This document shows, one piece after another, positions 16,609-35,026 of a stretch of DNA of 64,000 bases. The notes under the pieces are model-generated. The model saw only the letters and a program-made list of their open reading frames with translations, ran no database searches and was not told the DNA's origin. How positions within the stretch are numbered: the stretch's first letter is position 1; each line of letters begins with the position of its first letter. Origin of the DNA: Nocardia bhagyanarayanae (GTDB lineage Bacteria; Actinomycetota; Actinomycetes; Mycobacteriales; Mycobacteriaceae); NCBI RefSeq assembly GCF_006716565.1, contig NZ_VFPG01000001.1:4960001-5024000 (forward strand), written 5' to 3'. The translations under genes were made by a program, and so were the position numbers.

Positions 16609-17752
16609 TCGACACCCCTGGCTGGTGACCGCGCTGCTGGCTCCGGTGGTGCTGATGGTCGCCCTGCTGATGGCCGTGGCGGTGCGACCGGAGGGCAGCG
16701 ACTGCTCGTCGCCGGTGCGCGGCGACGAGTCTGGGATGTCCGGCGCGACAGGGCATTTGGTGGCGGGGCTTTCGGAACGGCAGCTGCAACTGGCCCGTGA
16801 CGGAGTCGCGATCGGCAAACGCCGCGGGATGCCCGCCGCTGTCATCATCTCCGAACTCGCCGCTCAAGCAACAGAATCGACCTTCCGCAACCTCGCCAAC
16901 CCGGTCGTCCCGGAGTCGCTGAACTATCCCCACGACGGCCTTGGCTACGACCACGACTCCGTCGGCCCCCACCAAATGCGTTACAGCGTCTGGGGTTCGG
17001 TCGGCATCGCGGCGCTGATGAACAGCGACTACCAGATCAACTGGTTTTACGACAAAACCGAAGCACTCGGCGCGGACGCCCGGGAAATGTCACCGACCGC
17101 GTTGGCCCAGGAGATTGAACGCTCCACCTACCCCGACGCCTACGCCCGCCACCTCGACCTCGCCCGCCAGCTCTACGCGAGATTCGCCGACCTCGACGTC
17201 GGCCCCATCCCGGACGACCGCGAACCGACCGAACCCCGCCCGGACGAGCGCCCGGTAATCACCGGGTGCAGCTCGCCGACCACACCACCGGATATCGTCC
17301 CCGCCAGCGACTTCGGCTTGGCGGTCATCGCGCACGCCCAGCGATGGATGGGCACATCCTACGTCTGGGGCGGTGGCGACATCCACGGACCCACCAACGG
17401 CGGATTCGACTGCAGCGGATTGACTCTGTATGCGATCTACCACGCCTCCGGCGGGCAGATACGGCTGCCGCACTACACCCAAGCCCAGCAAGACCATCCG
17501 ACGGCTCGGCCCGTGCCGAACGAGCAACGCGCTCCTGGGGACTTGATCTTTTTCACCTACCCCGGAGATACCGACTCCCATCATGTCGGCGTCTATACCG
17601 GTCGCGACGAGCACGGCACCGAGATGCTCCTGCACGCGCCCCAGACGGGACAGGTCGTGACGTTGACGCCACTGAGCGCATGGGACGGCGAACGCATGGA
17701 TGTGCGCCGATACGGAGGCACCAACTCTCGCGGAGATTCCGATGCCGTGTGA
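16598..17752 (+). CDS. Bifunctional cell-wall hydrolase: lysozyme-like plus NlpC/P60 domain
   Basis: A 384-residue VirB1-type wall-opening enzyme. A transmembrane/signal anchor lies at about residues 9-29. A lysozyme-like domain (about 60-190) contains ATESTFRNLANP and HDSVGPHQMRYSVWG, with Glu92 or so as candidate catalytic residue. The NlpC/P60 endopeptidase domain occupies about 245-375: Cys near 271 in GGFDCSGLTLYA, His near 329 in DSHHVGVYTG, and a third polar residue at LLHAPQTG. This two-enzyme arrangement is typical of Gram-positive conjugation systems, cutting peptidoglycan to let the channel through. Confidence 0.85.
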   Translation: MPNDRHPWLVTALLAPVVLMVALLMAVAVRPEGSDCSSPVRGDESGMSGATGHLVAGLSERQLQLARDGVAIGKRRGMPAAVIISELAAQATESTFRNLANPVVPESLNYPHDGLGYDHDSVGPHQMRYSVWGSVGIAALMNSDYQINWFYDKTEALGADAREMSPTALAQEIERSTYPDAYARHLDLARQLYARFADLDVGPIPDDREPTEPRPDERPVITGCSSPTTPPDIVPASDFGLAVIAHAQRWMGTSYVWGGGDIHGPTNGGFDCSGLTLYAIYHASGGQIRLPHYTQAQQDHPTARPVPNEQRAPGDLIFFTYPGDTDSHHVGVYTGRDEHGTEMLLHAPQTGQVVTLTPLSAWDGERMDVRRYGGTNSRGDSDAV

Positions 17753-17863: not shown

Positions 17864-17971
17864 ATGACCACAACAGCACACCGTGACCTCGGGATGCGGA
17901 TCGATGATCCGGCGCCCGACAAGTCAGGCCCAGATGTGGTTGGTGCACCGAAAGGGAAGCACCCGCTATGA
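17864..17971 (+). CDS. Small ORF (35 aa) bridging to the next gene
   Basis: The frame starts at ATG 17864 after a strong Shine-Dalgarno sequence (GAGGAGGAGAAC) and encodes MTTTAHRDLGMRIDDPAPDK and 15 more polar residues. Its TGA overlaps the ATG of the gene at 17968. The ribosome-binding site clearly belongs to this small ORF, so it is probably translated and couples translation into the next gene. No family recognised. Confidence 0.6.
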   Translation: MTTTAHRDLGMRIDDPAPDKSGPDVVGAPKGKHPL

Positions 17972-18753
17972 GACTCACCAGCCCAGCCACGAAAACGGTG
18001 GTATGCCAGGAACGCCGGGATCGCCGCGGTGCGGCGCGGCAGAAGTACCCGCTGCCGGCAGCGCGCGTGGCTGGCGAGTACGCCGCCGAACTGCGGGAGC
18101 GACCTAGTACCGCCAGGATCGATGAGATCGCCCGCTCCTACGGGCTGGCCGGCGACCCGAAGCGCTACGACCGGTTCCTGAGCGAGCTGCTGCAGCGCGG
18201 TGTGGACTACGAAGGTATCCGGCAAAGTGAGCTGCTGCGTGGACGGGTCTACATTCGACTGTTCGACCGGGCGCGCACCGCGCCATCGATCACACTGTGG
18301 GTGGCGGCGATGTTCGGTCGGTTCGCCGTGTGCCGTGCCGATGGCACCGTAATCTCACGCGGCGAGATTCCAGTCCACCTACGCGGCGAGGACACCGACG
18401 ACACCGTCGACACCATCCCCATCGACGACGACACCGGCGCCGACGGCATCGGTGCCGCCTACGCCGCCGCGCAAGCCGAGGCCGCCTCGATACACGCGGT
18501 CCGGCTGGCCGGAAGCGCCCGCGCCGCTACCAGATCCAGCGCGGCCAGACTGCGGCTGATCGTGGCGCGCCGCCACGGCTTGCGCGTCGCGCGGCTGCGC
18601 TACGTCGCGACCAGCGAATCGCTGGTCCTGCACCTGGTAACCGACGCCCACGGCAGCCCCGCAGCTGCCGCATGCCTGGAACCGACACCGGTGCGCTGGC
18701 AGCGAAGCGACCTGGCAGCCCTGCTGCAACCATGCCGGGGAGCATCCAGATGA
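17968..18753 (+). CDS. Hypothetical protein of the conjugation operon
   Basis: A 261-residue soluble protein. The N-terminal 120 residues are helical and basic (RIDEIARSYGLAGDPKRYDR) and could bind nucleic acid. The middle is acidic (EDTDDTVDTIPIDDDTGADG). The C-terminal 80 residues (RLRLIVARRHGLRVARLRYV) are again basic. No known domain was recognised. Coupled upstream to the 35-aa ORF and downstream by ATGA to the lipoprotein at 18750. Confidence 0.6.
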   Translation: MRLTSPATKTVVCQERRDRRGAARQKYPLPAARVAGEYAAELRERPSTARIDEIARSYGLAGDPKRYDRFLSELLQRGVDYEGIRQSELLRGRVYIRLFDRARTAPSITLWVAAMFGRFAVCRADGTVISRGEIPVHLRGEDTDDTVDTIPIDDDTGADGIGAAYAAAQAEAASIHAVRLAGSARAATRSSAARLRLIVARRHGLRVARLRYVATSESLVLHLVTDAHGSPAAAACLEPTPVRWQRSDLAALLQPCRGASR

Positions 18754-19334
18754 CAGCGCGCACAACCAGTTCAACTCCGACGCGGCATCGGCTTACCCGG
18801 GCAGCCGCGGCATCGACCGCGATCACCACCATCCTCACCGCGAGCGCGTGCACTCAACACGACCCATCCAGGGTTGACCATCCACTCACCAGCGCATCAG
18901 CCTGCGGCGCAACAACTTTCGCGCCGCCGTTTGCGGAAGTGGATCCCTGCTCGGTGCCAGCGGTGCTTACCGCCGCAGTCGGTGCGGCGTTGGAATACCA
19001 GGGCGGGGATCCCGACCAGCGGGCGGCGCTGCGGCGTGCGCGGCCACTGCTGACCGAGGAGTTCGCCGCGCTCGCCGACACTGCGGCACTGGTGTGGCTG
19101 CCGGTCCCAGTCGCGACCTGGCATCGGTGGCAGAACAAACCACCCACCACCGCAGTGCGGGTCACCGCCGACGACCATCCCCCCGACACCTCCACCCGGG
19201 CCCAGCGTGTTCTCGCCGTCACCGTCCACCCGCATGACGCGCCACCGCTGGACCTGGCCGTCTACGCCCACGTCGAACGCGACCGCGCTCCATCGAGCGC
19301 GTGGCGGCTGTCTTGGCTGGAGGTGACGCCGTGA
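18750..19334 (+). CDS. Putative lipoprotein, VirB8/NTF2-like
   Basis: A 194-residue protein with a signal segment and a lipobox-like Cys near residue 34 (TILTASAC). The mature part (LLTEEFAALADTAALVWLPV; RAQRVLAVTVHPHD; WRLSWLEVTP) has the strand pattern of NTF2/VirB8-like extracytoplasmic domains. It would be the fourth such domain in the operon. The stop overlaps the GTG at 19331. Assignment is by pattern only. Confidence 0.5.
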   Translation: MTARTTSSTPTRHRLTRAAAASTAITTILTASACTQHDPSRVDHPLTSASACGATTFAPPFAEVDPCSVPAVLTAAVGAALEYQGGDPDQRAALRRARPLLTEEFAALADTAALVWLPVPVATWHRWQNKPPTTAVRVTADDHPPDTSTRAQRVLAVTVHPHDAPPLDLAVYAHVERDRAPSSAWRLSWLEVTP

Positions 19335-20347
19335 GCGATGACCCGGCTGGTGAAGCGAGCCAGGCAGTTCGACAGGGCTTCATCCAAGGCATGCAGACCG
19401 CGCAGATGACCGCCGGAATGATCCGCGGTTTCGGCGCAGATGGGCGCTCCCGCCAGGCCCACCGACAGGCAATGGACCTGGCGCAAAGCAAAGAGCAGCG
19501 GTCGATCGTCGAGCACATGTGGCGGTTGGTCAAGTTGGGCGATGAGATACGAGCCAACGCCGAGTTGAACACCAAGCGCGGCGATGAGATCGATGAACGT
19601 CGCGCACAGAACAAGGCGAAGGCGCGGCTGGAGCGTCGGGAGATCCGTGCGCGGATGGGGCGTGGCGACAAGGATCTGATACGCCGGGATCAGGAGTCCG
19701 AGCGCAAAGAGACCCGGGACAAGGCTCTGCATGAGCCGCAGCTGGACCTGGCTAACGCGCGGGTAAGGCACGAGCAGGAACTGTTCGAGCTCGATAGAGA
19801 CATCAAGACCATGCGCTTGGAGGCGGCCAAGCGCGCAGCGGGATTCAGTGATCGCCTGCAGTCCAGCCAGTCGCCGGCAGACACGGCGGCGATGCGGTCG
19901 GCGGCGGCATTCGCCGCGGCAGACGCGAGCGAAGGTTTGTCGCAGACACACGCCGGTGAGGCGGCCGCCTTCAGGGAACGGTTCGCCGAGGACACCGGGC
20001 GCGGGTTCGGCGACACCGAGTTCGCTGCAACATCGCCCACGTTCACGACCACGGCGACAGGACGAGCAGCCCGCGAGTGGTATCAGGCCGTTGACCTGGC
20101 CGCGGCGCTGACCGTGACACGGCATTTCGAGCATTTCTTCGGTGACCCCGAATTCGATGAGGAGCTCGGTCGGCCATCCGGTAGCGACCCCGAGCCGGCG
20201 CCGGGCGCAGCGACGGGGGCGGCGATCGCGTCGGCGGGTTTGACCCGCACCGACGCCACCGAGGCCGAGACCGAACCGATCGTCATCGACGTGGAACCGC
20301 TATCGGTGCTCGACGTCCCCCTGACCAGAGCGGAGCTCGAACCATGA
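19331..20347 (+). CDS. Coiled-coil protein with shared C-terminal tail motif
   Basis: A 338-residue protein starting at GTG 19331 in overlap with the preceding stop. Residues about 45-180 are highly charged and helical (EIDERRAQNKAKARLERREI), predicted coiled coil. The C-terminus carries GAAIASAGLTRTDAT (from residue 296), the tail motif seen also in the 24177, 25336, 29468 and 30063 products, followed by an acidic Pro-containing end. No catalytic motif. Possibly a structural or substrate protein of the T4SS (inference). Confidence 0.6.
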   Translation: MSDDPAGEASQAVRQGFIQGMQTAQMTAGMIRGFGADGRSRQAHRQAMDLAQSKEQRSIVEHMWRLVKLGDEIRANAELNTKRGDEIDERRAQNKAKARLERREIRARMGRGDKDLIRRDQESERKETRDKALHEPQLDLANARVRHEQELFELDRDIKTMRLEAAKRAAGFSDRLQSSQSPADTAAMRSAAAFAAADASEGLSQTHAGEAAAFRERFAEDTGRGFGDTEFAATSPTFTTTATGRAAREWYQAVDLAAALTVTRHFEHFFGDPEFDEELGRPSGSDPEPAPGAATGAAIASAGLTRTDATEAETEPIVIDVEPLSVLDVPLTRAELEP

Positions 20348-20374: not shown

Positions 20375-21241
20375 ATGCATACCCCAACCTCCCTTCAACG
20401 ACGCCTGCTGGGTGCGATTCACCATGCGGCAGAGGTGGAAGCCGACCTGCGCGGTGACCCCGAGGCAAAAGGGACCGACGTGCGGCGGGTGAGCGACCAT
20501 GTCGACCGGCTCGCCGAAATCGCCGCCATGGTGGGCCTGCCCGCGCAGTGGATCCAGTACGAACGCGCGGCCGGTGCGCGCGGCTCAGGCTGGGATCCGC
20601 AGCAGGAATACCTCGGAGCCGCGCATATCGACCGCGACGCCCTCGTGCGCGGGTTCACGACCCGCATCGCCGAACTGCAGGAATGGGCGGTTCTGCAAGC
20701 CACCGCCGATGCCAGCGGCCTGCTCCGCGGAGCCGACGCGCACGAAGCGCGTGAGGCGTTCGGCCGCACCATGGGACAAGCCTGGGAGCTGGCCGGAGCG
20801 GTCGGACACGCACTCGAACTCACCGACGTCGAGGTGCGAGGAGCCTGGGACAAAGTGGGTCATCGACTCGCCCACTACAGCGATCAGCTGTCCGACTACA
20901 CCCGCAGTTGCCTGCACCTGGCGTTCCACAGGGTGAGCCAAGTCGACTTTCACCGCGACGGCATCGTGTGGCTGGTCCTCAAAGAAGCGGGCGTCACCCA
21001 CGAAGACGTGTCCCGGGTGATGCTGTCGACCCCGGATCAGATGATCGCCGCCGCCCGCACGTACCTCGAAAACCACTCCGGTGCAAGGGGACACATCGAA
21101 GCCGCCGAGCCCGGCCACCTGATCGGTGAAGCGATCCGGACGGCCACGAACACCGCCGCAGAAGTCGGCGCAGCACACAACGATGACTGGTCGGGCGTCG
21201 ACGCGCAACCATCGACGCCCGAGCCGGGGGTGGAGCCATGA
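20375..21241 (+). CDS. Paralog-family member 1, function unknown
   Basis: A 288-residue, mostly helical protein. Family motif at residues 54-73: GLPAQWIQYERAAGARGSGW. It then has LQEWAVLQATADASGLLRG, then DVEVRGAWDKVGHRLAHYSD. The tail holds LIGEAIRTATNTAAEVGAA and an acidic end PSTPEPGVEP. These blocks recur in the same order in the genes at 21252, 22253, 23261, 24177, 30063 and 31068, so this is the first of a tandem, highly diverged array inside the conjugation operon. No membrane segment and no known domain. Confidence 0.65.
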   Translation: MHTPTSLQRRLLGAIHHAAEVEADLRGDPEAKGTDVRRVSDHVDRLAEIAAMVGLPAQWIQYERAAGARGSGWDPQQEYLGAAHIDRDALVRGFTTRIAELQEWAVLQATADASGLLRGADAHEAREAFGRTMGQAWELAGAVGHALELTDVEVRGAWDKVGHRLAHYSDQLSDYTRSCLHLAFHRVSQVDFHRDGIVWLVLKEAGVTHEDVSRVMLSTPDQMIAAARTYLENHSGARGHIEAAEPGHLIGEAIRTATNTAAEVGAAHNDDWSGVDAQPSTPEPGVEP

Positions 21242-21251
21242 GGAGTTCGAC

Positions 21252-22184
21252 ATGACCCTCCGCGACGACATGGCCGACATGGCGAGCTGGCAGACACGAC
21301 TGCTCGAGCAGATCCAGAACCTGGCCGCGGACTACCGACGCCTCGCCCTCCACGGGCCCACTGATCACGACGCGAGCGCGCACACCGTCGTCGACATGGG
21401 CTTGACACGGTGGCGCGCCGGGCTCAGCGACCGCCTCCACGAGCGTCGAGAGCTGGAAGCGCAAGCGTACGTGGTCGGCGTCCCGCCGCGGCTGGTTGAT
21501 ACCGCGCGTGAGCACGGCTTGGCCGGAATCCACTGGAATGACGGCGAACTGGTCCGGCTGTCGCGAACCGGTGGGCGTTCGGCGTCAAGGGATGGTGCGC
21601 TCGAGCGCATCCGCGAACAGGTGTACCAGCTGCAACGCAGTGCGATGCTCGCTGCGGCAACACCCACGAGTTGGCATGCTGGCGAGGTTGGCGTCACCGA
21701 TCAGCTGACACGAAATATGCAGGGGCGCTGGCGATTAGCGGAAGCGCTCGGATTCGTGGCCTCGACCAGCGCCCCGGAACATGCCCGATTGTGGGACGAC
21801 ACGCGCTGGCGTTGGCAGCGGCTGGCCGAGACCACCGTCTCTGGCAGCACAGCCCTGGATCTGCACATCGAACTGGTCGCCGCCGCGCGGCCCAGCGTCG
21901 AAGAACTCGCCGACCACGCGCTGAGCCTGCTCGAAAGACGGGCGCAACTGCATGGTCGATCGGGTAGGTGGGCCGACGCACCACAGTTTTTGATCGCCGA
22001 TGCCTCGGCAGCGATCACGACGCTCGCAGATCCAGGACCGCAGTGGGCAGCGACACGCGCCGCTATCGACCTCATTACCACTTCCTCCGAACCGTCGCAG
22101 GAATGGCAGGAGAGGGACGCCGATTCCTCTGCGGCACAGCAAGGTCCGTACTTCGGCCCAGATACCGAACCCGATTTCCGATAG
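21252..22184 (+). CDS. Paralog-family member 2, function unknown
   Basis: A 310-residue helical protein. Family blocks: GVPPRLVDTAREHGLAGIHW, VYQLQRSAMLAAATPTSW, then APEHARLWDDTRWRWQRLAE. It ends QGPYFGPDTEPDFR, an acidic EP-containing tail. ATG 21252 lies ten bases after the previous stop. Overall identity to its neighbours is low outside these blocks, indicating old or fast-diverging duplication. Unknown role; soluble. Confidence 0.65.
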   Translation: MTLRDDMADMASWQTRLLEQIQNLAADYRRLALHGPTDHDASAHTVVDMGLTRWRAGLSDRLHERRELEAQAYVVGVPPRLVDTAREHGLAGIHWNDGELVRLSRTGGRSASRDGALERIREQVYQLQRSAMLAAATPTSWHAGEVGVTDQLTRNMQGRWRLAEALGFVASTSAPEHARLWDDTRWRWQRLAETTVSGSTALDLHIELVAAARPSVEELADHALSLLERRAQLHGRSGRWADAPQFLIADASAAITTLADPGPQWAATRAAIDLITTSSEPSQEWQERDADSSAAQQGPYFGPDTEPDFR

Positions 22185-22205
22185 CGACAGAAGGACAACA
22201 CCACT

Positions 22206-22256
22206 ATGCGCACCACACGAATCGGCCACCGCCAGCCAAGGGCTGGTCTGGGATGA
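22206..22256 (+). CDS. Bridging micro-ORF (16 aa)
   Basis: ATG 22206 follows AGAAGGA at a suitable distance and encodes MRTTRIGHRQPRAGLG. The TGA overlaps the ATG of the next gene at 22253. The only good Shine-Dalgarno sequence in this junction belongs to the micro-ORF, so the downstream gene is probably translated by coupling. Confidence 0.45.
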   Translation: MRTTRIGHRQPRAGLG

Positions 22257-23140
22257 GCGAGCTACCACAGCTGCGGGACTGGCAGTGGCGGCTCACCCGC
22301 CGCGTGTACCAGCTGCGGGTGGATTACTACAACGCTCTGTATCGGGGATACCCACAACCACGCGAAACCGACTACAGCTTCGGTGAACTCGACATCCTCA
22401 ACTGGCGAGCACATTTGTGGGAGATCAACCTCGCTGACAAGGACTTGAGCGCACGTGCCGTTGGCCAAGGCGTGCCCGAGAACCTGTTGATCGACATCGA
22501 CCGGCGCGCGACAACCTGCGACGTCGACCGCGAATGGATACCCGACGGGGAACCGAGCCCTGAACTCCGGACCCGCGAAGCCGCCTACGACCTGATCGCC
22601 GCCGACGCCTGGCAGTTGGCGACCATGGCCGCTGTCGAGGCCGATCACCACTACCTCGCCCGCGACCTGCCAGTGCCGCTGCGCGACCAGTTCGAGGAGA
22701 ACATGAACCTGGTGCGTGAACGCGCCGTCGTCGCCGCGTCGGCGGCAGCACTCGACATCGAAGACCTGGCCGCAATGATCCCGCGAACCCCCGCCGACCT
22801 CCTGCAGGTCGTCGACCTCACCGTCAACACCTACACCATCACCGAACTGCAAGAACGGTTCCGAGTGCTGGCCTGGCCAGGAATCGCGGTGCATGCCCGC
22901 CGAGACATTACCGAGTGGGCGTCACACACAAGCCACGTCGTGAGCGACGCATCCGACACGCTGTTTCCGTCAGTCCAGCATCTGCGCGCCGCTGCGGCGG
23001 CAGCACTCGGCGAGGACCCCTCTGGCCAGGCAGTCCCGGGGGCCGACCTCGGAATTGGTCGGGACGGGCTCGATCCCGAGCCCGCCGCCGAACACGGTGT
23101 CGGCCAGAGCACCCCGCAAGCCGGATACAGCGTCGAGTAG
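22253..23140 (+). CDS. Paralog-family member 3, function unknown
   Basis: A 295-residue helical protein starting MSELPQLRDWQWRLTRRVYQ, where DWQWRL resembles the WQxxL opening of members 2, 4 and 5. Family blocks: GVPENLLIDIDRRATTCDVD (with Trp following), DAWQLATMAAVEADHHYL, and LREAAAAALGED-like helices near the end. Tail acidic with DPEP. Start is coupled to the 16-aa micro-ORF. No known domain. Confidence 0.6.
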   Translation: MSELPQLRDWQWRLTRRVYQLRVDYYNALYRGYPQPRETDYSFGELDILNWRAHLWEINLADKDLSARAVGQGVPENLLIDIDRRATTCDVDREWIPDGEPSPELRTREAAYDLIAADAWQLATMAAVEADHHYLARDLPVPLRDQFEENMNLVRERAVVAASAAALDIEDLAAMIPRTPADLLQVVDLTVNTYTITELQERFRVLAWPGIAVHARRDITEWASHTSHVVSDASDTLFPSVQHLRAAAAAALGEDPSGQAVPGADLGIGRDGLDPEPAAEHGVGQSTPQAGYSVE

Positions 23141-23162
23141 TTCGGATGAGAAGGGAGATCAG

Positions 23163-23264
23163 GTGTCCAGCAATATTTTTCAGCCGATTAACGAGTACGC
23201 ACACCATGGCGCCGCCTATCAACCACTTGGCTGTGGCGCGGCTGTCCGGAGTAGATCGCTATGA
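23163..23264 (+). CDS. Bridging small ORF (33 aa)
   Basis: GTG 23163 follows GAGAAGGGAGATCAG, a strong Shine-Dalgarno sequence. The product begins MSSNIFQPINEYAHHGAAYQ and is 33 residues. Its TGA overlaps the ATG of the gene at 23261, as in the other bridging ORFs of this operon. No function assignable. Confidence 0.5.
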   Translation: MSSNIFQPINEYAHHGAAYQPLGCGAAVRSRSL

Positions 23265-24166
23265 GTGACCATGACCAGTGGCCGGGCTGGAAGCAACGCC
23301 TACTGGCCGCCTACCAGAACACGATCGTGATCGCCAGCAACGTTGCCTTCACCCGTTATCCAGATACCACGCAGCCGGGCTATCGCCCGGAGGCGTACGA
23401 GGCGTGGGTAGCAGAGCTCAATGGCCTGCTCCGACATCGTGATGCGCTGCGCCAGATCGGCTTGTCGGTGGGGATTCCCGTTGCGGCGTTCGAGCGCGCC
23501 GAGTGGTATGGGATGCGTGGCGTGCCGTGGGAAGAGCTGCATGGGACGGTGATCACGCCCGGTGAGTCGATAGAGCGGATCGGGATCGTCGACGAGATCG
23601 TGCGCGATGTCGGAGATCTCACACAGATGGCGATACTGGCCGCCGAGCACGCCGTCGAGCCGTTCCCGAGCGGGAGTTCGGACATCGTGGCCGGTTTGGC
23701 GGCGAACATGCAGATCATGTGGTCGCAGGTCAACGCGGCGATGCGAGACATCGGACTGAGTGTGGCCGAGCGAGACTCGCTGTGGCAACGCGATGGCGCA
23801 AGCCTCGCGACAGCGATCGAAGTCCTCACGACGACCTCGACCCGCTCCGAACGCGAAACACAGTGGGCGATCTTCAGCCACCCCGAGGACATCGGCGATC
23901 GCGACGACAGCAGGTCGAGCACCGCGGCGAACGAACATATCCCCACCCGAGCACTGGTGGAGGAAGCCACGCGAGCGTGGCGGGACTACCGCTATGGGCC
24001 CCAGCACGATCCCGTTGAGACAGCGGCCAACCGTATGACCTTGCCCATGGGCGCCATGTGGCTGTCAGAGCCGGATCCGGTGCCAGAGGACCAGGACCCG
24101 AATGCCGCCGCTGGTCCCGACGTGCCGGACCGGCGGCCGGACCCCTCGGCCGGTTTCGAGCTGTGA
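23261..24166 (+). CDS. Paralog-family member 4, function unknown
   Basis: A 301-residue protein. Opening WPGWKQRLLAAYQN; family motif GIPVAAFERAEWYGMRGVPW; second block VGDLTQMAILAAEHAVEP; third block GLSVAERDSLWQRDGASLAT. The tail is long, acidic and Pro-rich (WLSEPDPVPEDQDPNAAAGP). Soluble and helical. Translation probably depends on the upstream 33-aa ORF. Confidence 0.65.
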   Translation: MSDHDQWPGWKQRLLAAYQNTIVIASNVAFTRYPDTTQPGYRPEAYEAWVAELNGLLRHRDALRQIGLSVGIPVAAFERAEWYGMRGVPWEELHGTVITPGESIERIGIVDEIVRDVGDLTQMAILAAEHAVEPFPSGSSDIVAGLAANMQIMWSQVNAAMRDIGLSVAERDSLWQRDGASLATAIEVLTTTSTRSERETQWAIFSHPEDIGDRDDSRSSTAANEHIPTRALVEEATRAWRDYRYGPQHDPVETAANRMTLPMGAMWLSEPDPVPEDQDPNAAAGPDVPDRRPDPSAGFEL

Positions 24167-24176
24167 GGGGGCGGTG

Positions 24177-25133
24177 ATGGCCGAATCCGAACAGCCGATC
24201 GCGCAGTGGCAGGCACAGCTACTGCGAACGGTGATGCATTGGGCGCGAGTCGAAGCAGCCGAACTGGCTAGCGGCGCACAGAAGTATGACCTGGCGGCCG
24301 ACGCCGAGTACCCGGCGTTTGTCATCTTCGCCGCCAATCTCGATGCGATCCGCACCCAGCGCGAGAACGCCGAAGCCATGGCTGTCGAGGCAGGTATCGA
24401 CGCCGCATGGGTCCGGGATGTCCGTGAGGCTGCACTGAGTGGATCGGCACAGCTACCAGCTCCGATGATCGTGCCGGATCGCTTGTCGCGCACCAACGAT
24501 GTCGAAAGGTTCATCGCTGATTTGCTGCTGGTCGATCTGCATCAGCTCGAACGGATGGTCGTAGTCACCGCGGCGATCGAAGACCGCCAGGCCACGGGGC
24601 GATGGAGCATGACGTTCGGTCCGGAGAAGGTACAGCAGTTCACGGACAACCTGGTGTTGCGACATCAGCGTGTTCAAGCGCATGCCCACGGTGCGGCGAT
24701 TACCGCCGCGGAGGGAGAGCGGCTGTGGGGCAGCGCAGCGCAGGCGGTGCGCCGCCAACACGCGGTGTGGGCGCTCGCGGCCACTGAAACCGACTTGGCC
24801 GCATCCTATTTGACATTCGCCAGGATCACTCCAGAACGGCCGGTCCCGCCGTATATCGACATCGACCCGGTGACCGGAGCTCCGTTGCGTAGGGCTCAGT
24901 CCCTCTTGCCGAGTCCGGCGGCGATGCTGGTCGAGGCCCGCGCCACCTTGCGTGCGGAGTTCGTCACCGCAGCACTCGCCGACAGCACGCCCGACGCCGG
25001 CCTCGACACCGGTGTCGCGATCACGGCGGCACTTCCCTCGATGCACAGCGGCAACATCGCCGCGGACCAGGTCTCGCTGCCGGAGCCCAATCCGGACAGA
25101 GGCCCCGACCAGGAGCACGACATGGGCCCGTAG
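24177..25133 (+). CDS. Paralog-family member 5, with C-terminal tail motif
   Basis: A 318-residue protein. Opening IAQWQAQLLRTVMHWARVEA; family motif GIDAAWVRDVREAALSGSA; second block LHQLERMVVVTAAIEDRQ; third block ITAAEGERLWGSAAQAVRRQ. From residue 279 the tail reads GVAITAALPSMHSGNIAADQ and then LPEPNPDRGPD, matching the GxAIxAA tail element of neighbours. ATG 24177, Shine-Dalgarno sequence GAGGGGG. Unknown function. Confidence 0.65.
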   Translation: MAESEQPIAQWQAQLLRTVMHWARVEAAELASGAQKYDLAADAEYPAFVIFAANLDAIRTQRENAEAMAVEAGIDAAWVRDVREAALSGSAQLPAPMIVPDRLSRTNDVERFIADLLLVDLHQLERMVVVTAAIEDRQATGRWSMTFGPEKVQQFTDNLVLRHQRVQAHAHGAAITAAEGERLWGSAAQAVRRQHAVWALAATETDLAASYLTFARITPERPVPPYIDIDPVTGAPLRRAQSLLPSPAAMLVEARATLRAEFVTAALADSTPDAGLDTGVAITAALPSMHSGNIAADQVSLPEPNPDRGPDQEHDMGP

Positions 25134-25249
25134 CCGCACGCAGAGGCATCGGACTCCACACCCCTCAGCGGTGTGGAGCGGCAAACAGCAGCATTGCAGC
25201 AATTCTCAATGGTGACCATCGTTCACACCGGCTACGGGTAAGAGCCGGG

Positions 25250-25339
25250 ATGCTCGCCCCGACAGGCGCAAGGGACCTCCATCCGCCCCCGCACAACGCG
25301 GTGAGCGGCTCTCGTTTACAACGGAGGTCGGCCACGTGA
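25250..25339 (+). CDS. Bridging small ORF (29 aa)
   Basis: ATG 25250 begins a 29-residue frame (MLAPTGARDLHPPPHNAVSG and nine more) whose TGA overlaps the GTG start at 25336. The downstream gene has its own ACGGAGGT Shine-Dalgarno sequence, so coupling here is less certain. Included because of the repeated pattern in this operon. Confidence 0.35.
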   Translation: MLAPTGARDLHPPPHNAVSGSRLQRRSAT

Positions 25340-26454
25340 GTGCACGATCCGATTCCTCGGCGACCCAGGCGTTCGCCGAAGAAGTAGCCGAGGCTGATGT
25401 TCGTTCCGCCTTCACTCAGCACCTGAGGCTGCGGGAGATCGCCCGCTTCGCCGAAAGCGCCGAACAAGCCGCGGATATGGAATCGGCCTCGCGGGCGCTG
25501 GCGAAACGTTACGGCACCCATCCGGTGTGGGACGAACTGTCCGGGGCGTTCGCGGTATGGCGAACCAACCCCGCGTGGGCCGCACGGATGTTGGCTGCGG
25601 TCGAGGCCGCGGCAGCCGGGGTTCCTGATGCCGCAGCAGCGATGCTGCGCAGCCTGCGCCAGGCTGCCGAGATCACCGGCAGGCGCGATCCGGTCATCGA
25701 GAACAACGGTCAGGATGCGGCGCGATGGCGCCCTCCACCGTCGCGCAGCATCGGTGCCGCCACCGGCCAAGAGTCGGGGAAAGTGTTGGACCGCCTTTTC
25801 GGGCCCGACAGCACCTCGCTCGATATGGACGCAGTCGAGGCGATCATCGCCACCACCGACGAGCTGCTGGACGAACAAGACGACCAGGGAGACCGCTCGA
25901 GCGGCCGCGATGACCCGATACGACAGGTGGATCCCGCGAAGCGCAGCACTCCGGTCGCCGTCGAAGGCGACAGCCGAGATCGCGAACTGGCCGCCCGCCT
26001 GTCCGCACTGCGGGTCCTGCGTGACGTGGTGGCGGAGCACACCCGGCTGGCGGAGAACTGGGATCGGGATCCGCGCCACGAGCAGGAGCACATTGGACGT
26101 CTCGAGTCGCTGATGGACGACGTACGCACGGCCAAACAGCTGGCCGCCGCGGCCGGTGCCAGCGAAGAGGATCTGCACGCCGTCTACCGTGGCGCACTCA
26201 CCGGGACCCGCTGGTCAGAACTTGCCACCCACCTCACCGTCGCAGGGAATCGACTCGACCTGCCTAGCGTGCCGGCGGGCTTGGAGACCACCGCCGCGGC
26301 TGTACCGGACCGCGCGCCGCCGGGCCACTCGATCGGTGCCGCGATCGGTGCCGCTCTGCCTCCCGAAGCCAATATCGACGGGTGGTCGCCCGAGCCGGAC
26401 CCGCCGATGACCGTCCCCGATCCCGACTCGCTCGGCTACGGCGCTGATGACTGA
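25336..26454 (+). CDS. Operon protein with paralog motif near the C-terminus
   Basis: A 372-residue helical protein starting at GTG 25336 (GGAGG upstream). The first 240 residues are distinct, with an acidic centre (ELLDEQDDQGDRSS). Near residues 276-297 it has AAGASEEDLHAVYRGALTGT followed by RW, which fits the family motif. From residue 334 it has GAAIGAALPPEANIDGW and an EPDPP acidic end. It is therefore a divergent or fused relative of the tandem family. It lies directly before the VirD4-like gene. Confidence 0.6.
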   Translation: MSARSDSSATQAFAEEVAEADVRSAFTQHLRLREIARFAESAEQAADMESASRALAKRYGTHPVWDELSGAFAVWRTNPAWAARMLAAVEAAAAGVPDAAAAMLRSLRQAAEITGRRDPVIENNGQDAARWRPPPSRSIGAATGQESGKVLDRLFGPDSTSLDMDAVEAIIATTDELLDEQDDQGDRSSGRDDPIRQVDPAKRSTPVAVEGDSRDRELAARLSALRVLRDVVAEHTRLAENWDRDPRHEQEHIGRLESLMDDVRTAKQLAAAAGASEEDLHAVYRGALTGTRWSELATHLTVAGNRLDLPSVPAGLETTAAAVPDRAPPGHSIGAAIGAALPPEANIDGWSPEPDPPMTVPDPDSLGYGADD

Positions 26455-26502
26455 AACCAACTGTGGCTCAACGTAATCAACCGCAACTATGGAGGTGTCG
26501 CG

Positions 26503-28410
26503 ATGTTCGCGTCCCGAGAAACCCGCCGCCGCACCAAAGGCGGACTCAGTGAGGAAACCACGCTCCTGCCGTTGACCGGCGTGCTGATTGCGCTGATCGC
26601 CGGTGGATGGGTAGCGCTCACGATCGGCAGCTGGCTGGCCGGACTCCCGGCGACCGGCGACCCGGTCTCCGCGCTCCTGGATGCCGCACTCGGGACCAGA
26701 CCTTGGCCATGGCAGTCCAGCGTCATCGCCGTGATCCTGCTGGCCGCTGCAACGGTCACGGGGCGGGGATTGTGGCGATCGGTCAGCGGTGTAAGCGAGG
26801 TCGACGCCGCCGCGCGGACCATGGCGCGCCCCTCCACGATCACTCTGGCCCGCGAAGCTGACAACCTCGCCGCCAACAAACGGCTGTTGGCGGCCGCACC
26901 GCCCGACATGCAGACCAAGCCGGGCCCGTTCCTGGGGGAGACGGTCGTCGGCAGGGTCGGGCTGTATCTGCCTGCAGAACTGGGATGCACCATCTGCGCG
27001 GGAACCCGTACCGGCAAAACGATGGTGTGGGCGATCCCGTTCCTACTGGATGCGTGGGGGCCGAGCTTGGCCACGAGCAACAAGCCCGACCTGTACCGGC
27101 ACACCCTGGCCGAGCGAGAACGACGCGGCCGGATCTGGCTGTGCGACCTGCAAGCAGTGACTGGCACAGCGCAACTCGGGTTCTGGGTGAACCTGCTCGC
27201 CTCGGTTGACACCCTGCCCGCGGCCCGCAAGCTGGCCAGCTTCTTCATCTCCGCATCCTCGGGGACAGCAGCTCAGGCCGCCAATGCCCGCGTCGACTCC
27301 TACTTCGACGGCGGCGCACAAGAATTGCTGAGCTTGTATTTGCTGGCGGCGGCGAGCGCGCGCGGAGATCTGCTGCACGTCGCGGAATGGCTTGGCAGAG
27401 ACCAGGATCAGACGCCTGTGCTGATCCTGCGTCACGCCGGGCACGACCGCGCCGCTGACCGGGTCCTGGAATCGCAAGCGCTCTACGCCCGCCAGCGGGA
27501 CGGCCTCTACGACATGGCCCGCCGATTCCTGAACACGCTATCGGATGAGGGGTATGCGCGGTTGGTTACCCCGCCGCGGCGTCGGCGCCTGCGGGCACGG
27601 GAAGCTGACCTGCCTGGCACGGGGACGACGAGGATCGTTGTGGATTCCGAGCTCGACGACGAAGTTGTTCACTCGCTGCCGGAGTTCAAGCCGGTCGAAT
27701 TCGTGCGATCCGACGGCGACACCCTGTATGCGCTGTCGATGAGCGGCGCCGACAGCGCCACTCCGCTGACCGCGGCGCTAGTCGGACAGATTCTTGAAGC
27801 TGGACTACAGATCGCGCGAGCCCGCCCCGACGGGCGGCTACGCATCCCGCTGACCGCCGTGCTCGACGAAGCCGCGAACTGCGCCCGCATCGGTGAACTC
27901 CCGTCCTACTACACCTACGCCGGTGGCTGTGGAATCATGCTGATCACAATTCTGCAGGTCATCGAACAAGGCGAAGACCTCTGGGGTGTCAACGGATTGC
28001 GCACGATGCGCGCCCAGTCGATCGAGATCTACGGTGGGGGCATCGCCGTACTCGACTACCTCGAGCAGTGGTCGAAATTCACCGGGGACCATGACGTCGC
28101 CGACAGGTCCCGTAGCCGCGGACCCGGAGGCGTTCAGCGCAGCCTCAGCTGGCGCGCCGAACCGATCCTCTCCGTCGCCGAACTGGCGGCGCTCCCGAAA
28201 GACCGAGCACTGGTCCGGCTTCCCGGGCACAAACCACTGCTGGTGCGCAAACGCTGGTGGACCGACAGCCAACACGCCGGGGTCATTACCGAATCGCTGG
28301 CCCGATTCGAAAACCAACCCGACCCCGAGGAGGCCACCACATTGTCTGTCGCGGACACAGCCGACACCGACAGCGAAGGAGACAGCGGGGAAGGGGAGCG
28401 GGGATGGTAA
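26503..28410 (+). CDS. VirD4/TraG-like type IV coupling protein
   Basis: A 635-residue ATPase that recruits the relaxosome and protein substrates to the secretion channel. Two N-terminal transmembrane helices (about residues 22-46 and 72-90). Walker A GTRTGKT at 167-173; Walker B LTAVLDEAAN near 450; a TraG-like downstream region (YYTYAGGCGIMLITILQVIE). Shine-Dalgarno sequence GGAGGTGTCGCG before ATG 26503. It overlaps the next start by seven bases. The proteins encoded on both sides are plausible substrates or partners. Confidence 0.85.
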   Translation: MFASRETRRRTKGGLSEETTLLPLTGVLIALIAGGWVALTIGSWLAGLPATGDPVSALLDAALGTRPWPWQSSVIAVILLAAATVTGRGLWRSVSGVSEVDAAARTMARPSTITLAREADNLAANKRLLAAAPPDMQTKPGPFLGETVVGRVGLYLPAELGCTICAGTRTGKTMVWAIPFLLDAWGPSLATSNKPDLYRHTLAERERRGRIWLCDLQAVTGTAQLGFWVNLLASVDTLPAARKLASFFISASSGTAAQAANARVDSYFDGGAQELLSLYLLAAASARGDLLHVAEWLGRDQDQTPVLILRHAGHDRAADRVLESQALYARQRDGLYDMARRFLNTLSDEGYARLVTPPRRRRLRAREADLPGTGTTRIVVDSELDDEVVHSLPEFKPVEFVRSDGDTLYALSMSGADSATPLTAALVGQILEAGLQIARARPDGRLRIPLTAVLDEAANCARIGELPSYYTYAGGCGIMLITILQVIEQGEDLWGVNGLRTMRAQSIEIYGGGIAVLDYLEQWSKFTGDHDVADRSRSRGPGGVQRSLSWRAEPILSVAELAALPKDRALVRLPGHKPLLVRKRWWTDSQHAGVITESLARFENQPDPEEATTLSVADTADTDSEGDSGEGERGW

Positions 28411-29312
28411 GCACCGCGCGGACGGGGTCCGGGCGCGGTGGCGCTGCTACCGCACCGCAGTTCCGGGATTTCGTGCAGTTCGCCGAGCAGTGGTTGCTGC
28501 CGATGATCAACGTCCGTCTCGCCGAGGCCCGCCGCGAGCAAACCTACACCTGGTGCACCCAATGGTGGGCGCATCGTCCCGTGGCGGTCCGGATCGCGCA
28601 CCTGCACACCGCATTCGAAGCCACCCGACGGTCCCGCGCCGGATCGGCAATGAGCAGCTACCTGTCCGGCCACGTCGACGCCCACTTCCGCACCATCCTG
28701 GACGCCGCCAACGGACCACTACACCGCTGCACCCGCGCGGTCCACGTCCCACTGGCGTCACTGCCCTTCGACCCCGTCCCGTTCAACTACTTCGGGACTG
28801 CCCTGGCCCCGCCACCTCGTCAGCCCGCACCCGCCACAGCGGACCCCGACACCGACAGTGGAGGCGACGACAGCGAGCGGAAGCCGCCACCACCACGATT
28901 CGGTGATTTCGTGCAGTTCGTCGAGCAGTGGCTGTTGCCTACGACCGCCGTCCGGATCGCCGCCAACTCCCGAGAAGGCCAGTACACCTGGTGTCAACGA
29001 TGGTGGGAACACCGCGCCGTGGCAATACGATTCGCCGCACTACATCGAGGATTCGAAGCCGCACTGCGCGCCGAGGACAAGACCGCGATGTCGGGCTACA
29101 TCGTCCGCCACCTCGACCCCCACCTCCGGTCGATCCTCGACGCCGCCAACGGACCCCTACACCGCTGCCGACCTGACGAACACGTCAGTGTGCCGGGCCT
29201 GCCGTTCAGCACACCTCCACGCGACTGGTTCGCAACGCCCGGAATCGCGACTCCCACCGAGGATCTCGGGTTCGGCCCCGACTTCCGCGCCCTGCGGGCA
29301 GTCGACCAATAG
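28404..29312 (+). CDS. Protein with two tandem DUF4913-type domains
   Basis: A 302-residue protein formed by an internal duplication. Repeat 1 (about residues 15-110) has FVQFAEQWLLPMINVRL, TWCTQWWAHRPVAVRIAHLH and ILDAANGPLHRC. Repeat 2 (about 165-260) has FVQFVEQWLLPTTAVRI, TWCQRWWEHRAVAIRFAALH and ILDAANGPLHRC. The WxxxWWxH...HLDxH...GPLHRC pattern matches DUF4913, normally a single-domain protein of actinobacterial mobile elements. It directly follows and overlaps the coupling-protein gene, so a role in substrate processing or DNA transfer is plausible but unproven. Confidence 0.7.
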   Translation: MVSTARTGSGRGGAATAPQFRDFVQFAEQWLLPMINVRLAEARREQTYTWCTQWWAHRPVAVRIAHLHTAFEATRRSRAGSAMSSYLSGHVDAHFRTILDAANGPLHRCTRAVHVPLASLPFDPVPFNYFGTALAPPPRQPAPATADPDTDSGGDDSERKPPPPRFGDFVQFVEQWLLPTTAVRIAANSREGQYTWCQRWWEHRAVAIRFAALHRGFEAALRAEDKTAMSGYIVRHLDPHLRSILDAANGPLHRCRPDEHVSVPGLPFSTPPRDWFATPGIATPTEDLGFGPDFRALRAVDQ

Positions 29313-29340
29313 CTGAAACGAGGACGAGGAGCCAAATTCG

Positions 29341-29475
29341 ATGAAACGTCCTGCACAGCCCCCAGAGCGACGCACAGTCCTGTCGCCTTGGCGGGCCGAA
29401 GGCTACGACACCGCGCTCGCAATCAGCCGATTGCTGCTGGGGCAGCAGCGCACCGCCGAGGTGGGCGATGGATGA
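29341..29475 (+). CDS. Bridging small ORF (44 aa)
   Basis: ATG 29341 follows GAGGAGCC and encodes a basic 44-residue peptide (MKRPAQPPERRTVLSPWRAE at its start, then ALAISRLLLGQQRTAEVGDG). Its end overlaps the start of the 29468 gene by eight bases. It is the best-formed of the bridging ORFs: good Shine-Dalgarno sequence, amphipathic helix, coding-like composition. Confidence 0.6.
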   Translation: MKRPAQPPERRTVLSPWRAEGYDTALAISRLLLGQQRTAEVGDG

Positions 29476-29902
29476 CTGGATGCGCCGAGCCCGTGACCTG
29501 CTGATGCGGTTCGGGCGATGGGTGATGTTCGACGACCTGAAGTCGCGCGGCCCAGACGGCTCGCTGGCCGACGACGATGCGGTGCTGATGACGACGTTGC
29601 CGCCCGAGAAATGGCCGCACCACCTGCGTGCCAAACCCTCCGCCAATGCCAAGCCGCTCTCACCACCATCGACTGCGTCGAACGATCACGACGGCGATCG
29701 CGACAAAGGCGGAGCGCAGTTGCGTGATGGCAATCCCACGGTGCGAGGCGCTCTTTCGGCCGCGAATCTACTCGACGCGCCAGCCACGACGGTCGATCGG
29801 GGCCAAGGACAGGCAGCGCAGGAACGGGAGATCGACGACGGCGCCGGGGCCGCACCGCCGGACGACTCACCCGAGATCGCAGAGGGTGAGGGCCTGCTGT
29901 GA
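29468..29902 (+). CDS. Hypothetical acidic protein with shared tail motif
   Basis: A 144-residue protein. N-terminal helix (MDDWMRRARDLLMRFGRWVM), then disordered, acidic sequence. From residue 94 it has GALSAANLLDAPATTVDRGQ, closely similar to GTAIAAANLTRAPAAGVESD in the 30063 product. It therefore seems to share the tail module without the paralog core. GTGA overlap leads into the 20-aa ORF at 29899. Confidence 0.5.
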   Translation: MDDWMRRARDLLMRFGRWVMFDDLKSRGPDGSLADDDAVLMTTLPPEKWPHHLRAKPSANAKPLSPPSTASNDHDGDRDKGGAQLRDGNPTVRGALSAANLLDAPATTVDRGQGQAAQEREIDDGAGAAPPDDSPEIAEGEGLL

Positions 29903-29961
29903 CCAGCTCGAGAGTCTTCACCGAGATCGACGAATGCGACGCCTGCCCGCTGTTGAACTAA
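29899..29961 (+). CDS. Micro-ORF with CxxC (20 aa)
   Basis: GTG 29899 overlaps the preceding TGA and has GAGGGTGAGGG upstream. The 20-residue product TSSRVFTEIDECDACPLLN (after the initiator) carries CDAC. It ends about 100 bases before the next gene, so it does not bridge. Short enough to be chance. Confidence 0.3.
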   Translation: MTSSRVFTEIDECDACPLLN

Positions 29962-30062
29962 CCGGCGCGCATCTGCCCACCTCAGCCCACGCTGATGGGT
30001 GATGCCCCGCGCCTCGCCGGTGCGCTGGTGACCCATTCTCCGACTGAAAAGGAGCCTCACTG

Positions 30063-30995
30063 ATGCGTAAACCAACCGCGTTGGAAAAGAAGGTGTTGCA
30101 GACACTGCAGGATCTGACCGCGGAGAACACCGCTATCAGCGCTTCCGGCCGAGAGCCCGTGCCCACCGCGACCGAACCCCAGCTGTCGGTGACGAGAGAG
30201 GAGTGGGACGACCGGGTGGCGATGGCCGAAGCGCTGAAGCAGGCCGCACTCGCCGGGGGAATCCCCTCATCGTGGGTCGCGCACGTCACCGAGCGCGGCG
30301 AAAAGGGACGCTACTGGCATCCGGATTTGTGGTTGCGGCCCGCAGAACAACCGGTCGATCGCGCTCAGATACTGGCCGGTCTGCGCGCCGACGCAGACCT
30401 TCTGCGGTCGATCACGGGACTGCAGGCTGCCGCATGGCATTTCGACCTGCACCGCGCCGACGAGGAGACCTCCAGCACGGTGGATCTCGTGATGGATCTG
30501 ATGTGGCAGCGCATGGTGTCGGTGGCCCGCCTGGCCGCAGTCACGGCCCAGGAAGCTCGAGGAGTCTGGGGTGATGCCCAAACCTGGGCGCGCAGTGCCG
30601 TCACCGACCTCGGTGCCCTGGACCGCGCCCGCGTCGCCGCTGCGTGGAGTGAAGCGGCGAGGCTGAACGCTTGGAGCTACGGCTGGCAAGCCATCGGCCT
30701 GGCCGAGGCCGGTGTGAAACCCAAAGCCCTCCAGCGGTTCACCCCACCACCGAAGCCGACCGACCTTGTCGAACTCATCCAGGATGAACTCGCTGTAACC
30801 GGCACTGGTGCCGGCACCGCGATCGCCGCGGCCAACCTTACTCGAGCTCCCGCTGCTGGCGTCGAAAGCGACAGCGGTGCAGCCTTGTTCAGCGACAGCT
30901 CCGGCAGCGCGGAAGCCGGCACGGACACCTACGCCGAATACGCGGACTGGCCGACTGAGCCGACATTCAGCGACACCGACGGGCGGTCGCTGTGA
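30063..30995 (+). CDS. Paralog-family member 6, with C-terminal tail motif
   Basis: A 310-residue protein. Family blocks: GIPSSWVAHVTERGEKGRYW; LRSITGLQAAAWHFDLHRA; TAQEARGVWGDAQTWARSA. From residue 251: GTAIAAANLTRAPAAGVESD, then an acidic end (ADWPTEPTFSDTDGRSL). ATG 30063 with AAAGGAGCC. Resumes the family after the coupling-protein segment, so the array is split by VirD4 and the DUF4913 gene rather than being one block. Confidence 0.65.
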   Translation: MRKPTALEKKVLQTLQDLTAENTAISASGREPVPTATEPQLSVTREEWDDRVAMAEALKQAALAGGIPSSWVAHVTERGEKGRYWHPDLWLRPAEQPVDRAQILAGLRADADLLRSITGLQAAAWHFDLHRADEETSSTVDLVMDLMWQRMVSVARLAAVTAQEARGVWGDAQTWARSAVTDLGALDRARVAAAWSEAARLNAWSYGWQAIGLAEAGVKPKALQRFTPPPKPTDLVELIQDELAVTGTGAGTAIAAANLTRAPAAGVESDSGAALFSDSSGSAEAGTDTYAEYADWPTEPTFSDTDGRSL

Positions 30996-31075
30996 TCCGC
31001 GAACAGACACCCGAACTCGGCAGAGGCCTGAGACCGCGAGACGACGACGCCATAGTGAGCGACGCCCATGAGTAG
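30992..31075 (+). CDS. Bridging small ORF (27 aa)
   Basis: GTG 30992 overlaps the stop of the 30063 gene and the frame runs 27 codons (MIREQTPELGRGLRPRDDDA at its start) to a TAG at 31073-31075, overlapping the next ATG (31068) by eight bases. It exactly joins two family members. No separate Shine-Dalgarno sequence is evident for the downstream gene. Confidence 0.45.
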   Translation: MIREQTPELGRGLRPRDDDAIVSDAHE

Positions 31076-32003
31076 GGGAAGCGTCGCGTCGTCGGTGCGA
31101 GGCCGCGATCTGCCGATCCGGCAGGCTACCGCGCTACGTCGCGTCCAAGACCTAGCCGCCGACGCCGCGCGGGTGCGGAAGACGATCGAAACCGCGGAGG
31201 CGACCAATCCGCGGGCCGCCGCGCAACTCGACCGAACCGTCCATGCCCGCCAAGAAGCCGAGTACGACGCGGTGCGGGCCGGGGCACCGCGTGCATGGAT
31301 CGCTCTGGCACGGGAGTGGGGCCGCACCGGCCGGTGCTGGTCGCAGCGCAATATGTTCCCACCGATGCCGTGGGACCCACAGCGGCAGACACCGTCGCGG
31401 ATCAGCACCGACCGCGGCTCGATGATCGAGATGGTCGCACTCACCGTCGTCCGCGAGCATCGCCTCGCTGCCCGAGGCATCACCACCGAACCCGATCCCG
31501 CTGCAGCTGAAGGGCTTCGCCGCAACCTCAACGCGCTGTGGAGCCGTGCCCACATCAGCGCTGCTGTGCAGGCCATGCACGCCGGACGCGAGCGGCCGCC
31601 CCCATGGCGGATTAGCGACGGGACATGGCGAGCTGCGATCGAGAAGTACCGCGACTACAACCTCCAAGACCTCGACGCGCTCTGGCGCGACTACACCACC
31701 CCACGCATCGCCGATCGTGTCCGCAACTCGATGGCAAGCCTGCGACGCGCTGCACGCGCCGCGGCGGTCCCACCACTTGGACAAGATCCGTCGCCGGCCA
31801 ACGTCTTGTTCGGGCGAGCACGCTACATTGCTTACGAGACCTTGTCCTCGCCAACCGAAGACGGTATCGGCACCGCGAACGCCATCCACGCCGCGTGGCT
31901 CGGCCCCGACACCTGCACCGCGTGGGACGAACCCGAAATACCGGACACCGAAACGTCCCAAACCGGCGTGCACTACGAATGCGCATCAGGCGCGGAGCGC
32001 TGA
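31068..32003 (+). CDS. Paralog-family member 7, function unknown
   Basis: A 311-residue protein. Opening LRRVQDLAADAARVRKTIET; family motif GAPRAWIALAREWGRTGRCW; second block MVALTVVREHRLAARGI; third region LQDLDALWRDYTTPRI. The tail includes DGIGTANAIHAAWLGPD followed by WDEPEIPDTET. Last clear member of the array and the last sizeable gene of the plus-strand conjugation operon. Confidence 0.6.
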   Translation: MSRGSVASSVRGRDLPIRQATALRRVQDLAADAARVRKTIETAEATNPRAAAQLDRTVHARQEAEYDAVRAGAPRAWIALAREWGRTGRCWSQRNMFPPMPWDPQRQTPSRISTDRGSMIEMVALTVVREHRLAARGITTEPDPAAAEGLRRNLNALWSRAHISAAVQAMHAGRERPPPWRISDGTWRAAIEKYRDYNLQDLDALWRDYTTPRIADRVRNSMASLRRAARAAAVPPLGQDPSPANVLFGRARYIAYETLSSPTEDGIGTANAIHAAWLGPDTCTAWDEPEIPDTETSQTGVHYECASGAER

Positions 32004-34017: not shown

Positions 34018-34088
34018 CTAGGTCGCGACCGCCCCGTGCACGCTGGCGTTGCCGTCTATCGATGCGGGTTATGTCGGAGGTGTCTGCC

Positions 34089-35024: not shown

Positions 35025-35026
35025 CG

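Follow-up and report, generated by a model that had tools for sequence, protein, structure and literature searches.

A slot-ordered family of paralogous proteins around the coupling gene of Nocardia conjugative elements shares a C-terminal tail with other proteins and may be exported with DNA

We analysed a stretch of 64,000 nucleotides (positions 4960001-5024000 of the 6.1-Mb contig NZ_VFPG01000001.1, Nocardia bhagyanarayanae, assembly GCF_006716565.1), called the window below, which contains a transfer operon with the gene of a VirD4-like coupling protein, K. Seven genes of this operon, A-E upstream of K and I and J downstream, encode diverged members of one unnamed protein family. Many Nocardia genomes carry such a set, largely fixed and usually of five or more diverged proteins, around the coupling gene. 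Family members occupy conserved slots, and the majority have a C-terminal tail (or tag) that is common to proteins with other bodies and whose last residues resemble those of MobF relaxases. In our estimate it is about an even chance (roughly 0.5) that these proteins are substrates exported together with the relaxase-bound DNA.

Results

One unnamed protein family

A first-pass annotation, made from the sequence alone, had grouped the seven open reading frames (ORFs) by three sequence blocks. All seven exist on the + strand, each with a start and a stop: A (20375..21241, 288 aa, first after the gene X2), B (21252..22184, 310 aa), C (22253..23140, 295 aa), D (23261..24166, 301 aa), E (24177..25133, 318 aa, last before the gene F), I (30063..30995, 310 aa) and J (31068..32003, 311 aa). 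Leave-one-out hidden Markov models (HMMs) recovered 7/7 of them as one family, with E-values of 2.3e-14 (A), 2.6e-25 (B), 1.4e-11 (C), 5.7e-16 (D), 2.1e-18 (E), 1e-12 (I) and 3.3e-14 (J); the best of the 336 shuffled or reversed decoys used per search reached 8.8e-4. Smith-Waterman comparisons gave a clear signal for pairs such as B-D (z 13.1) but not for others such as C-E (z 0.7), and identity to B is 17-22 %. The blocks themselves correspond to conserved columns, in B numbering G76, G89, G92 and W95 for block 1, L127 and M130 for block 2 and E176 and W181 for block 3, in a 41-sequence alignment of which 34 rows came from a protein search, mostly from one orthogroup.

The product of F (25336..26454, + strand), directly before K, had been noted to carry block 1 near its end. 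This is right in substance, but F is not a full member: its N-terminal part is unlike the family and the HMM of the seven gives E 150. Once the profile had been iterated, the block-1 region was matched in 36 F orthologues, and in many of these the tail as well (E 4e-21 to 2e-6). F is therefore kept as a partial relative, although the HMM of the seven had ruled it out as an eighth member of the ordinary kind.

No Pfam or NCBIfam family came over the cut-off for any of the seven (the best NCBIfam value, 0.004 for D, is far under it). For A, B, E, I and J, with C and D left out, PADLOC gave no match and PHROGs weak matches only (best 0.009). A tblastn search with B in plasmids gave no match and a single-sequence protein search with B returned only B itself; as such searches failed, the family's reach came from profile searches. 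The absence of a match in the curated libraries, together with a distribution that hardly extends outside the genus, bears out the view of a lineage-specific, unnamed family.

Regarding structure, AlphaFold2 models of B (predicted local distance difference test 80.7, predicted template modelling score 0.64) and J (81.3 and 0.62) both predict an all-helical body and a disordered tail. The helices come in the same order in the two proteins, which are 20 % identical; the last short helix is of low confidence. Both models were built from the same 41 sequences, and with shared alignment rows their agreement is not fully independent. The seven had been described as soluble and helical: helicity is predicted for the two modelled members, and no hydropathy segment above 1.6 occurs in any of the seven (C is borderline at 1.58). 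Comparison of the B model with PDB and BFVD structures gave no useful match, which does not show that the fold is new, and the best E-value in a sequence search of solved structures (0.11) was not meaningful.

Distribution in Nocardia

Family members were found in 57/150 Nocardia genomes (own included, 15 candidates scored per genome). Most positive genomes have 5-8 matches, and the range of 1 to 14 shows that copy number does vary between relatives. At family level 16/401 genomes matched, 15 of them Nocardia (own included); five of these 15 matches were an N-terminal piece only, on a 183-185-aa ORF, and the single match in another genus covered 71 positions (7.7e-5) on a 130-aa ORF. The order-level search of 397 genomes gave no match beyond the window's own. 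In both wider searches five candidates were scored per genome, so relatives may be missed.

The 183-185-aa ORFs (for example 2507-3061 of locus L089 in genome G121, and small ORFs in G026, G058, G124 and G125) resemble the N-terminal part of the family at E 3e-8 to 1e-5. Their genomes showed no full member in the family-level search, and they are a possible origin of the N-terminal module of the body.

Conserved slots and old orthogroups

We extracted 20-kb stretches (two of them shorter) around 40 places in 38 genomes, chosen from the listed genus matches. Family genes had been seen on both sides of the VirD4-like gene (26503..28410, + strand) in the window, which is correct, and with the window included the same arrangement, upstream of K and downstream of the gene for a DUF4913 protein, was present in 30/41 loci. 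Exactly three copies upstream (after X2) and two downstream were found in 20/41; in eight loci the stretch contained K and, of the family genes, upstream copies alone, and three stretches were without K. F stands directly upstream of K in every locus showing both labels, and F and the DUF4913 gene flank K directly.

A tree of 237 members contains five large, mostly slot-specific orthogroups: that of A (30 members in 30 loci, support 0.997), of I (42 in 39, 0.74), of J (36 in 34, 0.94), of E (43 in 40, 1.0) and a fifth (31 in 29, 0.76). B, C and D of the window fall in none of them, and in loci without downstream copies I- and J-group members occur among the upstream genes. Between-locus identity of the family bodies, with the last 60 residues omitted, is 34-45 %, and that of X1, X2 and F is 39-40 % (X1 0.40); for the DUF4913 protein it is 62 %, for the hydrolase Q 66 %, for K 67 %, for the VirB4-like protein 79 % and for the SCO6880-like protein 86 %. 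Slot-linked orthogroups across loci indicate a set that is old, ordered and fast-evolving rather than freshly duplicated. The earlier suggestion that the family is kept diverse by duplication is therefore mostly unsupported, yet some elements have extra copies and B, C and D remain ungrouped. Body charge is also slot-specific, with orthogroup medians of -14 (E), -10 (U2), -3.5 (I), -1 (A) and +5 (J); together with the all-helical predicted body this leads us to expect that the copies differ in function or combine in a mixed assembly, and that they are not interchangeable.

The C-terminal tail

Many members end with a short helix of the type I..A[IV].AA, placed some 40 residues before the C terminus, then an acidic linker poor in Lys and Arg, and a terminal Gly-x-Glu/Asp-Pro/Leu (GxEP-like). 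In the window A ends with GVEP and D with GFEL; the tag regions of E and F, taken as the last 60 codons, lie at 24951..25130 and 26272..26451 (+ strand), the latter with the helix IGAAIGAALP followed by an acidic Pro-rich linker. Pro, Asp, Glu, Gly and Ala abound in the tail consensus, which lacks Gln. Within orthogroups the linker is less well conserved than helix and end: across the five large ones, 55-89 % of the distinct tails have retained the Gly at -4, while most positions of the linker are not retained.

A strict helix pattern was present in 83/246 family members, 22/37 F and 8/40 X2, and in none of the 189 machinery proteins, 120 relaxases and 234 background ORFs. The strict ending, (G.[DE]|[DE].G)[PL]$, occurs in 108/246 family members, 16/40 X2 and 61/120 Nocardia relaxases, against 1/234 background ORFs, 3/38 K and 0/151 for machinery other than K. 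When this fixed pattern was applied to 13 later loci and repeated ends were discarded, the counts were 30/59 for the family, 4/10 for X2 and 0/37 for other machinery.

An origin of GxEP + TGA in a ribosome site or ATGA overlap was considered and ruled out, since family genes without overlap keep the ending (43/82). In the J slot without overlap it is kept in 17/23, many with TAA or TAG stops and varied codons, and among genes that do overlap by ATGA it was found in 0/67 of the DUF4913 (G), Q, X1 and L16 genes and in 3/21 of the K genes. A loosened ending, (G.[DEG]|[DE].G).$, fitted 8/10 relaxases of other genera by eye and also 8/234 background ORFs. Having been devised after the relaxases were seen, and fitting 9/37 DUF4913 proteins and 5/38 K, it carries little weight.

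The tail on different protein bodies

A tail HMM was built from 235 family-labelled tails, none of them from the window; these probably include at least two F-like tails that had no label (loci L055 and L071). It matched 26/45 F at E<=1e-3 (39/45 at E<=0.1) and 15/49 X2 (30/49), and none of the 217 proteins of the machinery set (K, G (the DUF4913 protein), Q, X1, L16 and N) even at E<=1. Among 8323 other six-frame ORFs, most of which are not genes, there were 7 matches at E<=1e-3 and 16 at E<=0.1, and among 9053 shuffled tails 0 and 1, respectively.

Judged by eye, among the other ORFs matched at E<=0.1 are a small protein of alpha/beta appearance (1765-2307 of L072, also in L061 and L062 and as the first ORF of L070), a 402-aa ORF (L064), an X2-like protein (L120) and block-1-only proteins (L070, L112). 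A further match is a 612-aa protein of L050, homologous to paralogues on a plasmid (E 7e-23 to P0005), and unlabelled, cut or frame-shifted family genes were matched as well. Ten proteins (nine such other ORFs or similar and the window protein H) had no clear match in Pfam.

Within the window the tail HMM gave E 5.8e-6 for E, 2.9e-7 for F, 0.0015 for A, 0.0074 for X2, 0.054 for J, 0.083 for B, 0.13 for D, 0.83 for I and 78 for C, and no match for any of the six machinery proteins. In searches of 13 whole genomes, with 150 candidates scored per genome, 37/37 matches at E<=0.01 fell inside the clusters, in 8 carrier genomes, and 4 non-carriers had none. Several of the 37 are rows of the profile, so this count shows specificity and not sensitivity.

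Three tandem proteins of about 600 aa, alike by eye, are encoded on a plasmid of Nocardia sp. NBC_01377 (8276-13903 of L004); the two that were scanned match no Pfam family. The tails of the plasmid proteins P0002-P0005 appeared tag-like by eye, and this was rejected, as the tail HMM gave no match at E<=1.

Relaxase endings

For comparison we used the best 120 of 1439 relaxase matches. Their tails are acidic, with a net acid of at least 4 in 105/120, vs 16/189 for machinery and 16/234 for background, and their endings are acidic, glycine-containing and related to the family ending. The relaxase of the window (59985..63962, - strand), of which the C-terminal two thirds are present before it runs off the window, ends with GYAIDPDL; PF08751 is found in its relatives, most of which are named MobF, and in locus L088 the protein has 1954 aa. 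From its proximity we infer that it belongs to the same element as the operon.

Export as cargo and alternative explanations

Of the roles first suggested, that of type IV substrates is the one we favour, now with a candidate signal. Most simply, the coupling protein would read a single terminal code, to which protein cargo adds the helix. The tag would be recognised by K, export together with the relaxase-bound DNA would follow, and the cargo would act in the recipient or in the recipient's envelope. In a broader version, put forward tentatively and at somewhat less than even odds, Nocardia elements would use a dedicated type IV system to inject a payload of about 5-11 helical paralogues together with several further bodies. 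A new C-terminal code, made up of the helix, the acidic linker and the GxEP-like end, would direct this payload, and the MobF relaxase would share its terminal part.

Several points weigh against export. In the window no tag is recognised on C, those of I and D are marginal and H is unmatched, and a genome-wide search of the own genome gave no tail HMM match at E<=0.01. Because F is itself partly related to the family, the independent carriers are limited to X2 and the rarer bodies. The strict ending was found post hoc, and since the members are also related, Fisher values overstate the enrichment. It is found in only 5/37 F (0/8 in the later loci) and is missing from two small orthogroups (0/11 and 0/9), and K, the presumed reader, itself carries it in 3/38 and then in 4/10 of the later loci, where one clade ends with GVEL. 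The relaxase link is limited to terminal residues and acidity: the helix is found in 0/120, the tail HMM matches 0/119 at E<=0.1 and one at E<=1, and only 2/14 plasmid relaxases have the strict ending. The untagged X1 diverges as fast as the family, so speed alone does not mark cargo. Gram-negative MobF relaxases use internal signals (PMC8406263, PMC10025392).

The main rival is docking on the coupling protein without export. The tagged proteins would then be fixed cytoplasmic subunits of a coupling complex, each docked by its tag on the coupling protein or a common scaffold, and would select or unfold substrates while staying in the donor. Conservation of roughly one member per slot, slot-specific charge and the position of the F and DUF4913 genes on either side of the coupling gene would all fit, and DotM/N/Y/Z and IcmSW on DotL are a precedent (PMC12857230). 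However, fast divergence compared with K, a copy number of 1-14 and the similar ending of the relaxases are more readily explained by cargo, and we consider docking unlikely, at about half the weight given to export. Still less probable, in our view, is that the paralogues are relaxosome or DNA-packaging accessories which coat or organise the transferred DNA, with the tail contacting the relaxase or coupling protein. Their genes are indeed neighbours of the coupling gene within the transfer operon and the bodies of J orthologues are basic (median +5), but most large slots are acidic or neutral by the medians given above (E, U2, I and A) and no nucleic-acid-binding family (Pfam) or fold (B model) was found.

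The tail could also be mostly compositional, an acidic Pro-rich disordered end produced by a host of high guanine-cytosine content and by translational-coupling sequence, with no role in recognition. Tails of low complexity and a strict motif in under half of the members are what such an origin would give, but the near-absence of the ending from background (1/234) and from machinery other than K (0/151), its persistence in genes without overlap, codons that vary while the residues stay, and the specificity of the tail profile make this improbable. Entry-exclusion proteins are typically anchored in the membrane or at the surface. That the family consists of entry-exclusion or partner-specificity proteins diversified by duplication, one of the roles first suggested, would agree with its fast divergence; we regard it as very improbable, because no membrane segment was seen in the seven and a multi-slot set with large orthogroups across elements is the opposite of recent diversification.

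If the export reading is true, an actinobacterial conjugation machine that must cross a mycolic-acid envelope would, as far as the literature was searched, have its first recognised substrate code. The shared tail can be removed, moved to a reporter or bound to purified coupling protein, making substrate choice directly testable. The reading also names a whole unannotated gene set, and the tail profile may find further cargo.

The operon and its surroundings

On the + strand the operon runs in the order SCO6880-like N, VirB4-like gene, NlpC/P60 gene Q, X1, X2, A-E, F, K, DUF4913 gene, H, I and J. N (13400..14872) resembles genes annotated as SCO6880 family in plasmid operons and reaches only E 0.008 with Pfam EccE, under the cut-off. 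The VirB4/TraG-like ATPase L16 (14869..16608) has similar genes in plasmid conjugation operons and a weak match to P-loop_TraG (0.023), also under the cut-off. Q (16598..17752) is a cell-wall hydrolase (Pfam 8.2e-18), and X1 (17968..18753) is a fast-evolving protein without the tag. X2 (19301..20347) has a charged body that by eye looks like a coiled coil, carries the tag and ends with AELEP; it is related to the plasmid protein P0002 (E 4e-6) and lies outside the family by the HMM of the seven (E 340). K matches TraG-D_C (6.5e-18, residues 449-566) and T4SS-DNA_transf (5e-9), and the DUF4913 protein (28404..29312) has two stretches matching its domain (1.1e-54). H (29468..29902, 144 aa) lies between the DUF4913 gene and I and has a tag-like ending by eye; it has no relative in the 40 other loci (phmmer, E<=1e-3).

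There is no tRNA in the window and no PF00589 integrase within 130 kb (other integrase types were not searched). The term integrated element is thus used on the basis of gene content.

A cutinase-family gene (3692-4921, 4.9e-11) precedes the operon, as one does in an R. koreensis plasmid operon (L006), and possibly has a role in passing the mycolic-acid layer. Two AbiTii genes (33924-36739; PADLOC 5.5e-29 and 3.1e-27) enclose a similar-looking, apparently frame-disturbed copy at 35027-35961, judged by eye. Between the transfer operon and the relaxase, beside the conjugation operon, there is a Wadjet type III set, an anti-plasmid system (50599-58620, - strand; JetD 8.4e-106, JetC E 0, JetA 6.8e-175), in which a 263-aa gene without a match (56180-56971) sits in the place of JetB.

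Comparison with known systems

In the open-licence literature we found no description of the family or the tag, nor of substrate choice by actinobacterial conjugation machines. Pfam includes a model of XVIPCD, a substrate domain of Xanthomonadales; it gave no match here, and no named domain was found on the tagged bodies scanned. A likeness of gene position is seen on the NBC_01377 plasmid, whose paralogues of about 600 aa stand, like A-E, between an X2 relative and the coupling gene, and the homologue in L050 carries the tag. Unlike the family, these paralogues have no family HMM match, and the tails of the plasmid copies are unmatched by the tail HMM.

In the Dot/Icm coupling complex several small proteins (DotM/N/Y/Z, IcmSW) likewise assemble on one coupling protein, but there, comparing by description, the tail of the coupling protein binds the subunits, whereas in Nocardia the small proteins carry the tail (PMC12857230). 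Conjugation systems are known to move proteins besides the relaxase (PMC8406263). The SSB, PsiA, PsiB, ParA and ParB proteins co-transferred by the F-type plasmid pED208 are encoded by the element, as here, and travel through the conjugation channel; they serve plasmid maintenance and no common tail is mentioned in the part of that source used, whereas Nocardia has a paralogous set with a shared tag (PMC8406263). Type IV substrates elsewhere have C-terminal signals that are read by VirD4 proteins and follow no single consensus (PMC10025392, PMC6536674). The X-T4SS (type IV secretion system) effectors of Xanthomonadales resemble our case in that XVIPCD is a modular C-terminal domain on varied N-terminal bodies, read there by a VirD4 (PMC6536674). 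XVIPCD, however, has about 120 residues and a Gln-rich end, whereas the Nocardia tail consists of a short helix, an acidic Pro-rich linker and a GxEP-like end.

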